Assembly: GCF_003627795.1 (NCBI RefSeq)
Contig: NZ_CP032684.1
Span: 845,001-909,000 of the forward strand
Source of the DNA: Rhizobium sp. CCGE531
GTDB taxonomy: Bacteria; Pseudomonadota; Alphaproteobacteria; Rhizobiales; Rhizobiaceae
Direction of reading: 5' to 3'
DNA: 64,000 nucleotides
Of the stretch, positions 57,744 to 60,906 are shown piece by piece. The notes under the pieces are model-generated. The model ran no database searches. It was given only the letters and a program-made list of their open reading frames with translations, and was not told the DNA's origin. The translations under genes were made by a program, and so were the position numbers. Position 1 is the first letter of the stretch. Every line of letters begins with the position of its first letter.

Positions 57744-57772
57744 GCCGCGGGCGGAAACGTCCGCGGCTTTTC
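57744..57772 (+). terminator. Intrinsic terminator after mctP
   Basis: Arms GCCGCGG (57744-57750) and CCGCGGC (57761-57767), an inner CG pair, then TTTT. 20 bases after the mctP stop. Confidence 0.85.
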
Positions 57773-57835
57773 TATGGATTGCCGCAACTGTTTTCTCTTC
57801 CTTTCCTTGGAAAAAACGCCTATGAACCGGCGACC

Positions 57836-57898
57836 ATGACCCAATTTCGGCCGAGCCTATCGATACGAATTATTGGCCCGGCCTTCCGCGCGCTGTAA
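57836..57898 (+). CDS. Putative ileS leader peptide with clustered Ile codons
   Basis: A 20-codon reading frame, [24 protein letters not shown], with three isoleucine codons (ATA 57863, ATT 57869, ATT 57872) within 12 bases. Its end overlaps the 5' arm of a strong intrinsic terminator. A five-codon frame (ATG 57822, MNRRP-stop) ends at the ATGA of this frame, so translational coupling is possible, since no good ribosome-binding site precedes it. It lies 125 bases before ileS. This is the layout of an amino-acid attenuator. The weak point is translation initiation. Confidence 0.55.
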
Positions 57899-57921
57899 GC
57901 TGCCGGAAGGTCCGGGTTTTT
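57877..57921 (+). terminator. Terminator hairpin of the putative ileS attenuator
   Basis: CCCGG and CCTTCCG (57877-57888) pair with CGGAAGG (57904-57910) and CCGGG (57912-57916): 12 base pairs with a one-base bulge, then TTTTT (57917-57921). The 5' arm lies in the leader peptide codons. A competing hairpin can form between GGCCGAGCC (57849-57857) and GGCCCGGCC (57875-57883), which shares bases with the terminator arm. Confidence 0.75.
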
Positions 57922-57922
57922 G

Positions 57923-57942
57923 GCGTCTCGTTCACGAGACGC
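57923..57942. promoter_or_regulatory. Second hairpin in the ileS leader
   Basis: GCGTCTCG (57923-57930), TTCA, CGAGACGC (57935-57942), perfect 8-base arms just after the terminator T tract and before ileS. Function unknown. Confidence 0.4.
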
Positions 57943-58023
57943 TTTCCGCCGCCGAAAAATCCCCATATGGCTGCGCCAGTTCAGGCGCAAGACGCCCGAG
58001 ACACCGAGGCAATTGTCACGACT

Positions 58024-60906
58024 ATGACCGATACCGCTGAAAAGATGGATTACTCCAAGACCCTTTACCTGCCGGAAACCGATTTTCCGATGCGTGCCGG
58101 GCTGCCGCAGAAGGAGCCGGAGCTGGTGAAGCGCTGGGAGGAGATGAGCCTCTACAAGACGCTGCGCGCCTCCGCCGCCGGCCGCGAGAAGTTCGTGCTG
58201 CATGACGGCCCTCCCTATGCCAACGGCAACATCCATATCGGCCATGCCCTCAACAAGATCCTCAAGGACGTCATCACCCGCTCGTTCCAGATGCGCGGCT
58301 ATGACAGCAACTACGTTCCCGGCTGGGATTGCCACGGCCTGCCGATCGAATGGAAGATCGAGGAAAAGTACCGCGAGAAGGGCAAGAACAAGGACGAGGT
58401 TCCGGTGAACGAGTTTCGCCAGGAATGCCGCGATTTTGCCGCCGGCTGGATCAAGATCCAGTCCGAGGAGTTCAAGCGCCTCGGCATCACGGGCGATTTC
58501 GAAAATCCCTATCTGACCATGAACTTCCATGCGGAATCCCGCATCGCCGGCGAACTCCTGAAGATCGCCCGCACCGGCCAGCTCTATCGTGGCTCCAAGC
58601 CGGTCATGTGGTCGGTGGTCGAGCGCACGGCTCTGGCGGAAGCCGAGGTCGAATATGCCGACGTCGAGAGCGACGCGATCTGGGTGAAATTCCCGGTTGC
58701 CGAAGGCTCGGCTGATCTCGTCGGCGCCTTCGTCGTCATCTGGACGACCACGCCCTGGACGATCCCCGGCAACCGCGCGATCGCCTATTCCTCGCGTGTG
58801 TCCTACGGGCTTTATGAAGTCACGGAAGCGGCTAATGATTTCGGTCCTCGCCCCGGCGAGAAGCTGATCTTCGCCGACAAGCTGGCTGAGGAATCCTTCG
58901 CCAAGGCAAAGCTGCAGTACAAGCGCCTGGGCGACGTCACCGCCGCCGATCTCGCCGCACTCACCTGCGCGCACCCGCTGGCCTCGCTCGGCTACGGCTT
59001 CAAGGTTCCGTTGCTCGACGGCGATCATGTGACCGACGACGCCGGCACCGGCTTCGTGCACACGTCTCCCAGCCATGGCCGCGAAGACTTTGACGCCTGG
59101 ATGTCGCATGCGCGCGACCTCGAAAAGCGGGGCATCTCGTCCACCATCCCGTTCCCGGTCGATGACGCCGGCTTCTATACCGCCGATGCTCCCGGCTTCG
59201 AAGGCGGCCGCGTCATGGACGACAACGGCAAGAAGGGCAATGCCAACGATCTCGTCATCAAGGCGCTGATCGAGACGAACACGCTGTTTGCGCGCGGCCG
59301 GCTGAAGCATTCCTATCCGCATTCCTGGCGGTCGAAGAAGCCGGTCATCTTCCGCAATACGCCGCAGTGGTTCGTCTATATGGACAAGGACTTCGCTGAC
59401 GGCTCGACGCTGCGCTCGCGCGCCCTGAAGGCGATCGACGATACGCGCTTCGTGCCATCAGCCGGCCAGAACCGCCTGCGCGCCATGATCGAGCAGCGTC
59501 CGGACTGGGTTCTGTCGCGCCAGCGCGCCTGGGGCGTACCGATCGCGATCTTCGTCGACGAGCATGGCAATATCCTGCAGGATGATGGTGTGAACGCCCG
59601 CATCCTCGAGGCTTTCGAGCAGGAAGGCGCCGACGCCTGGTTTGCCGAAGGCGCGCGCGAACGCTTCCTCGGCGAAAAGGCCAACGAGCCCTGGACGCAG
59701 GTCATGGACATCCTCGACGTGTGGTTCGATTCCGGTTCGACCCATTCCTTCACGCTGGAAGACCGCCCGGACCTGAAGTGGCCGGCGGACGTCTATCTCG
59801 AAGGCTCCGACCAGCATCGCGGCTGGTTCCATTCGTCGCTGCTCGAAAGTGCCGCGACGCGTGGCCGTGCGCCATACGATACTGTCGTCACGCATGGCTT
59901 CACCATGGACGAGCATGGCCGCAAGCAGTCGAAGTCGCTCGGCAATGTCGTCGCTCCGCAGGACGTGATGAAGGACGCCGGCGCCGATATCCTGCGTCTC
60001 TGGGTCATGACCACGGATTATTGGGAAGACCAGCGCCTCGGCAAGGCCATCATCCAGACCAATGTCGATGCCTATCGCAAGCTGCGCAACACCATCCGCT
60101 GGATGCTCGGCACGCTGGCGCACGACAAGGGCGAGGTGATCGCCTATGTCGACATGCCAGAGCTGGAGCGGCTGATGCTGCATCGCCTCGCCGAGCTCGA
60201 CGAGCTGGTGCGCGAAAGCTACGACGCATTCGACTTCAAGCGCATTGCCCGCGCCCTCATCGATTTTGCCAATGTCGAGCTCTCGGCTTTCTATTTCGAT
60301 GTTCGCAAGGATGCGCTCTATTGCGATGCGCCGTCGAGCCCGCGCCGCCGCGCCTCGCTCGCCGTCATCCGAACGATCTTCGATTGCATGGTGACATGGC
60401 TGGCGCCGATGCTGCCGTTCACGACGGAAGAGGCTTGGTTGTCGCGCAACCCGTCGGCGGTCTCCGTTCATCTCGAGCAGTTCGTGACCATTCCCGCCGA
60501 CTGGAAAAACGAGTCGCTGGCCGAGAAATGGAAGAAGATCCGTGCCGTGCGCAGCGTCGTTACTGGCGCGCTGGAAATCGAGCGCAAGGACAAGCGCATC
60601 GGCTCCTCGCTGGAAGCCGCCCCGGTGGTCTATATCGCCGATCCGGAGCTGTTGAAGGTGCTCGAAGGGCAGGACTTCTCCGAGATCTGCATCACGTCGG
60701 GCATCACCGTCCTTGGTGGTAAGGGTCCGGCCGATGCCTTCCGCCTCGAAGATGATGCCAAGGTCGGTGTGGTTCCGAAGCTTGCCGAAGGCAGCAAATG
60801 CGCCCGTTCCTGGCGCATCACCACCGATGTCGGTTCCGATCCGGAATATCCGGATGTCTCGGCTCGCGATGCCGCGGCATTGCGCGAGCTGATGGCTGTC
60901 AACTGA
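58024..60906 (+). CDS. ileS: Isoleucyl-tRNA synthetase
   Basis: 960 residues from ATG 58024 (979 if the ATG at 57967 is used; neither has a strong ribosome-binding site). Class I signatures: [15 protein letters not shown] (HIGH at about 71-74) and KQSKSLGN (KMSKS loop, with Gln for Met). The editing domain contains [11 protein letters not shown], and IWVKFPV. The C-terminal zinc-binding CxxC..CxxC module is degenerate: only one Cys remains in KCARSWR. Charges tRNA-Ile. Preceded by a putative attenuator. Confidence 0.97.

Follow-up and report, generated by a model that had tools for sequence, protein, structure and literature searches.

Introduction

How is the short open reading frame (ORF) that precedes ileS, the isoleucyl-tRNA synthetase gene of Rhizobium sp. 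CCGE531, connected with the control of that gene, and which part of it could register a shortage of isoleucine? The locus lies in the window, by which we mean the whole stretch of 64,000 nucleotides that was analysed, and the original prediction took it for a leader-peptide attenuator. Synthetase genes that respond to tRNA charging are known from T-box leaders, which bind the tRNA directly and have no leader peptide. The ileS leader resembles them in being a leader RNA that would control a synthetase gene and differs from them in having no Rfam match at gathering score. As had been noted from the sequence, no T-box was found: no Rfam family, T-box included, reached its gathering score in the window, and the six matches that appeared at E values up to 5 were at chance level (E 0.58 to 3), none of them a T-box.

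Published precedents for attenuation are trpE(G) of S. meliloti, which has the leaderless leader trpL (PMC7298713, PMC10117765), and an ilv operon of Caulobacter, for which ribosome pausing is said to block a terminator (PMC4117421). A leader in front of ileS has also been noted. A ribosome-profiling paper names CCNA_03934 of Caulobacter crescentus as 'ileS leader CDS' and uses it as an overexpression control, so that the existence of such a leader was already known (PMC4117421). No description of ileS attenuation in alphaproteobacteria was recognised in the open-access literature searched. As far as these searches go, what is new is a fixed unit of dicodon and stem, its spread, and a second target gene.

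Anatomy of the locus

The leader and its hairpin sit upstream of ileS, and the element was confirmed as real (Table 1). The predicted frame of 20 codons, with Ile at codons 10, 12 and 13, is present, and so is the predicted terminator-like stem of 12 pairs followed by five T, to which one bulged U has to be added; its arms are CCCGGCCTTCCG and CGGAAGG-T-CCGGG. Some details needed correction. The leader was thought to begin at 57822, where an ATG opens a frame of 5 codons, and to end inside the 5' arm of the stem; the ORF begins 14 nt further on and stops at the hairpin tip. The ileS frame is open from 57967 and, judged from relatives, its true start is probably 58024. By IleRS, the nearest named relatives are R. 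freirei (94%), R. lusitanum (93%) and R. calliandrae (93%). The pattern CGAATTANNNNCCCGG was found once in the window's own 7.1-Mb genome, at the ileS leader.

Table 1. Features of the ileS leader region, in coordinates of the window
Feature	Position	Strand	Remark
Terminator-like hairpin after mctP	57751..57764		
Putative promoter CTTCCT-N18-TATGAA	57797..57826	+	promoter-like pattern; start predicted on the leader ATG or a few bases from it (leaderless mRNA)
Leader ORF, 20 codons	57836..57898	+	ATG 57836-57838, TAA 57896-57898
Ile codon 10, ATA	57863..57865	+	
CGA-AUU-A, invariant dicodon plus A	57866..57872	+	109/109 family leaders
Ile codon 12, ATT	57869..57871	+	
Ile codon 13, ATT	57872..57874	+	
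Hairpin	57877..57916	+	5' arm 57877-57888, 3' arm 57904-57916, bulged U 57911
T5 tail	57917..57921	+	terminator-like in the window and many Rhizobiaceae
Second hairpin, GCGTCTCG-TTCA-CGAGACGC	57923..57942	+	directly 3' of the T-run
ileS, isoleucyl-tRNA synthetase	58024..60906	+	TIGR00392, E 4.9e-241

The gene mctP lies upstream on the same strand as the leader, and a hairpin with five T might be taken for its ordinary terminator, the ORF being due to chance. This is scarcely credible, given that mctP has a terminator-like site of its own, that the leader is conserved where the sequence farther upstream differs, and that the ORF and the dicodon are conserved too.

The promoter-like pattern fits 87 of the 99 distinct family upstream sequences against a shuffle mean of 1.3, a comparison made with a pattern that was composed after viewing the sequences; a standard sigma-70 promoter scan found none at the leader. 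SD-like 4-mers occur in 4 of the same 99. TTGAC is present 30 to 44 nt before a candidate leader ATG in 19 of the 27 loci where an ACT-domain gene follows (see below), most often at 35 to 36 nt, and in 6 of 26 ileS loci from other orders of the class; the 109 family loci and the 14 order loci gave no such case. Four loci (L125, L127, L129 and L131) were dropped from the TTGAC counts and from those of the T tail. Transcription probably begins at or just before the ATG, which would make the leader ORF leaderless, as in trpL of S. meliloti.

Conservation and codon usage in Rhizobiaceae

The DNA upstream of ileS was taken from 112 records, comprising the best 80 named relatives, 30 loci drawn from 199 family genomes (one of these loci belongs to the window's own genome), one further locus of that genome and the window. 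Removal of L001 and L082 (the window's own genome) and of L041 (at a contig end) left a family set of 109. This set samples the closest relatives, with 101 distinct sequences over 108 bases; its leaders are kin and therefore not independent.

All 109 family leaders carry CGAATTA, in frame as CGA-AUU-A, together with an in-frame ATG 9 to 17 codons before CGA; in each of them the stem opens with CCCGG, placed exactly 11 nt past the C of CGA. The leader stop falls exactly 30 nt past the C of CGA in 101 of them and at 21 or 24 nt in the others. In the alignment of 101 rows, each of the seven columns of CGAATTA is constant (101/101), and the neighbouring codons are variable. Because the frame is always CGA-ATT-A, the invariance takes in two wobble positions. 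A search for look-alikes in 58 upstream sequences that lack CGAATTA recovered the full anatomy only with CGAATTC, at three loci; synonymous variants of CGA-AUU with the full anatomy were absent from these 58. Across genomes, the exact pattern CGAATTANNNNCCCGG is present in 181 of the 199 from the family, and the reversed pattern in 21; several of the 18 genomes without the exact pattern are small.

The relatives did not bear out a sensor made of all three Ile codons. The AUU of codon 12 is the sole invariant Ile codon, and the codon that follows is Ile in 67 of 109 leaders; the others have Thr, Ser or Met there. What was expected of an alignment of relatives is thus seen in part: Ile is fixed at codon 12 and the stem has compensatory changes, but Ile is not fixed at codon 13.

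In the ileS genes of 110 loci, CGA accounts for 66 of 7568 Arg codons (0.87%), ATT and ATA for 6.7% and 0.7% of Ile codons, and Ile for 4.8% of all codons. In 89 distinct family leaders, Ile makes up 132 of the 901 codons before CGA (14.7%), and 53 of these 132 are AUA. The corresponding values are 27/248 (10.9%) in 27 leaders of ACT genes and 35/368 (9.5%) in 31 class-level ileS leaders, where the ileS baseline is that of family loci only; the near duplicates L159 and L225 were left out here, as they were from the counts of downstream [AG]TTCG below. The leader frame is Ile-rich, and a short, putatively translated ORF enriched in codons for the regulated amino acid is a feature by which attenuators are recognised.

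Hairpin and T tail

The segment 57877-57923 folds with -28.0 kcal/mol (z -4.1), and 0 of 200 shuffles were as stable. The alignment contains 32 double-changed cells, compared with 6.4 in shuffles, and 7 of the 12 stem pairs have changes on both sides; standard pairing holds in 95.3% of the cells of these 12 pairs vs 92.0% in shuffles. The lower five pairs, CCCGG/CCGGG, are nearly invariant in the family, and most of its leaders retain the bulged base that separates them from the upper stem (a T in 87 of 101 rows). The conserved hairpin overlaps the end of the ORF, with the stop codon near its tip, which is likewise typical of attenuators. In the 48 nt that follow this hairpin, the stretch that holds the second hairpin of the window, 55 of 100 family leaders have an uninterrupted stem of at least 7 pairs, as against 15.4% of shuffles.

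The terminator that was originally proposed finds its best match in Rhizobiaceae. At least four T in the 8 nt past the stem are found in 51 of 93 leaders of this family, but only in 1 of 13 from the order, in 5 of 25 ileS leaders from the class and in 3 of 26 ACT leaders. As a T tail is uncommon beyond Rhizobiaceae, intrinsic termination can hardly serve as the output throughout. The proposal had also invoked an exclusive pairing of 57849-57857 with the 5' arm. In the window, 8 of the 9 bases can indeed pair in this way, but the relatives scarcely keep the pairing, with 58.3% of cells paired vs 57.3% in shuffles.

These data bear on a classical attenuator of the trp or ilv kind, in which several Ile codons, exclusive pairings and an intrinsic terminator would work together and CGAATTA would be kept for a structural reason. 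Precedents are S. meliloti trpE(G), with its leaderless leader (PMC7298713), and the Caulobacter ilv operon (PMC4117421), and the Ile-rich ORF and the hairpin with T5 of the window are what such a device would have. The shuffle-level alternative pairing, the single invariant Ile codon and the scarcity of T tails beyond Rhizobiaceae, however, make it a somewhat unlikely account.

Distribution beyond Rhizobiaceae

Sequences upstream of ileS were also sampled without regard to the motif; 25 belong to the same order but not to Rhizobiaceae, and 80 to the same class but not to this order. CGAATTA occurs within 460 nt upstream of ileS in 18 and 29 of them, respectively (shuffles 1.9%, for CGAATTA alone). 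The full unit, consisting of CGAATTA, an in-frame ATG and the stem, precedes ileS in 17 of 25 and 26 of 80, so that 54 of the 80 class sequences are without it. The 11-nt distance to CCCGG recurs in 14 of the 17 order leaders and in all 26 class leaders; in L131 the stem is wholly different (CGCCGTG/CACGGCG), yet begins at 11 nt. One of the 17 order units, L125, resembles coding sequence and may be a chance match.

A scan with CGAATTANNNNCCCGG found the pattern in 138 of 385 genomes of the class, compared with 37 for the reversed pattern. Among 182 genomes of other classes the figures were 13 and 22, and the pattern is therefore at background level there. Ninety sites, a part of the class matches listed, were read. 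A same-strand ileS lies behind 38 of them (two, L149 and L207, fall inside ileS itself), a small ACT-type gene behind 24 and a SnoaL-like gene behind four. The remaining 24, without a recognised target gene, were set aside, and several of these are plainly coding, e.g. inside rho.

L172 and L188 have a leader-like frame and a hairpin, but a target gene was not recognised behind them. The four leaders before a SnoaL-like gene (L167, L168, L169 and L178) have no evident link to isoleucine; SnoaL-like is our own label, and Pfam gave no family for the one such protein tested.

An ACT-domain gene behind the leader

The leader unit also precedes a small ACT-domain gene that resembles regulatory subunits of acetolactate synthase (27 ACT loci, for example L142, L144, L146, L151, L154 and L156). 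The gene lies between the leader and ileS in three of the ileS cases, and in one case the next gene resembles citramalate synthase over its N-terminal 180 residues. The ACT label is based on tblastn similarity among the loci, on PF26954 in the relatives of one member (23 of 24) and on a structural model of that member; at E 0.01, Pfam gave no family for five of the ACT proteins and NCBIfam none for four. The model (mean pLDDT 76.5) has the order beta-alpha-beta-beta-alpha-beta. Its best PDB matches, at E 1.8e-4 to 4.4e-4, are IlvN and the AHAS holo-enzyme; other ACT domains and ribosomal protein S6 come next. As modelled, the fold of the second target thus most nearly resembles the AHAS regulatory subunit IlvN.

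An ATG or GTG in the ACT frame is found 73 to 82 nt after CGA in 24 of the 27 ACT loci, and the ACT frame is +1 relative to CGA in 18. In 13 of these 18, the leader frame reads through the hairpin and ends 87 to 108 nt after CGA, passing the ACT-frame ATG, which suggests translational coupling at these 13 loci.

The heptamer CGA-AUU-A has the form of known +1 sites. A programmed +1 frameshift under Ile shortage would bypass the stop in the hairpin, and the 18 loci with a +1 ACT frame agree with it. It is nonetheless very improbable, since the +1 frame reaches ileS in 62 of 109 family loci and the +2 frame in 65, and since TAG directly follows UUA in the +1 frame at five loci. For ileS leaders it was rejected, the shifted frame not being favoured open towards the gene.

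The motif might instead be an RNA recognition site beside the hairpin, which a protein or a nuclease (RNase E, for instance) would bind or with which a downstream segment would pair, and which translation would merely expose or hide. Seven fixed bases would suit such a site, as would the [AG]TTCG, complementary to CGAAT, that occurs within 45 nt past the hairpin in 13 of the 27 ACT loci (2.7 expected from shuffles). In class ileS loci, however, this complement is about as frequent as in shuffles (5 of 31 vs 2.4), and in Rhizobiaceae it is rarer than in shuffles (3 of 92 vs 9.0). Moreover, the frame is kept, synonymous variants were not found among the 58 upstream sequences searched and the seventh base can change. 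We hold a recognition site to be quite unlikely. An outer helix of CGAAT with downstream ATTCG was rejected, being enriched in ACT loci only.

Discussion

Anatomy, invariance, spacing, covariation, enrichment in Ile and rare codons, and gene context are direct observations on these leaders. From them we infer translation, stalling, competition for the A site, the direction of the response and termination, in a cis-acting leader that would gauge charged tRNA-Ile through a ribosome stalled at CGA-AUU beside the stem. We give this reading an even chance. Sensing of Ile-tRNA by a translated leader, the core of the original prediction, gains support from the Ile content of the leader (14.7% vs 4.8%), the compensatory changes in the stem and a second target that resembles a subunit of branched-chain synthesis.

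Bao and colleagues report that the stem-loops of dnaX and HIV block A-site tRNA only at 11 to 12 nt, that the HIV stem docks into the ribosomal A site, and that the effect is largely independent of codon identity (PMC7282821). The same paper cites an earlier case in which the inhibitory pair CGA-CCG lay in the P and A sites and a small hairpin was observed in the A site. The ileS leaders fit this distance, their stem beginning 11 nt after the first base of CGA, the proposed P-site codon. They differ in that the dnaX and HIV stems promote frameshifting (PMC7282821), whereas ileS leaders do not favour open shifted frames. Because the published effect is largely codon-independent, the invariant codons need an explanation of their own, and we propose that CGA and AUU are decoded slowly.

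The sequence of events might be as follows. RNA polymerase would be trailed by a ribosome translating the leaderless short ORF. At codons 11 and 12, the rare Arg codon CGA would occupy the P site and AUU the A site, awaiting Ile-tRNA, while the GC-rich stem, starting 11 nt past the first base of CGA, would lie at the mRNA entry channel. Stem and Ile-tRNA would then compete for the A site, giving a single slow step that is sensitive to the supply of Ile-tRNA. If Ile-tRNA is scarce, the ribosome would stay and cover most of the five lowest stem pairs, no terminator would form and ileS would be transcribed; these five pairs are the most conserved ones. If Ile-tRNA is ample, the ribosome would melt the stem, stop at its tip and depart. 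After its release the stem would refold, and transcription would end where the lineage has a U-rich tail. Lineages without a T tail would have a different output, for which Rho, RNA decay or translation are options.

Reading the leader as a sensor is supported by CGA-AUU, which is invariant in the leader down to its wobble bases although both codons are rare in the same genes, and by the spread of the full unit to other families and orders, the IlvN-like second target, the enrichment in Ile and AUA, the fixed spacing of 11 nt and the covariation of the hairpin. It is weakened by the single invariant Ile codon, classical sensors having several, and by the fact that a ribosome which terminates at the hairpin tip would also cover the 5' arm for as long as it stays there. 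Also against it are the 54 of 80 class upstream sequences without the unit and the 18 of 199 family genomes without the exact pattern, the weak or absent T tail in many lineages, and the 13 of 18 +1 ACT loci in which the leader frame runs past the ACT-frame ATG.

Related leaders share parts of this design. S. meliloti trpL is, as the ileS leader would be, a leaderless short ORF with regulatory codons and an attenuator hairpin in an alphaproteobacterium (PMC7298713, PMC10117765). It differs in its Trp codons and in forming exclusive structures before trpE(G), and a fixed spacing between a rare dicodon and a stem is not described in the passages that treat it. The Caulobacter ilv leader is likewise a leader CDS with Ile codons, but these are tandem Ile and Val codons, and it precedes a biosynthetic operon rather than ileS (PMC4117421). 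CCNA_03934 is a leader CDS preceding ileS in an alphaproteobacterium, likened here by name; where PMC4117421 names it, no motif, hairpin or mechanism is given.

It is conceivable, although we would sooner doubt it, that these leaders form a distinct alphaproteobacterial sensor of aminoacyl-tRNA, in which a slow CGA-AUU at 11 nt from an A-site-competing stem controls two targets, ileS and an AHAS-like ACT gene, with the terminator as an optional readout. If this is right, the contest between an mRNA stem and charged tRNA for the A site, hitherto linked with frameshifting, would serve as an amino-acid gauge in a large class, and alphaproteobacteria would control a synthetase gene by a device that corresponds to the T-box but works through the ribosome. 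The response would then be lost on synonymous change of the two codons or with a spacer 2 to 3 nt longer. ileS and an uncharacterised family of ACT proteins may in this way be linked.

A minor observation concerns one family locus, L050, in which the core is partly duplicated in tandem (CGAATTGTTGGCCGAATTACTGGCCCGG).
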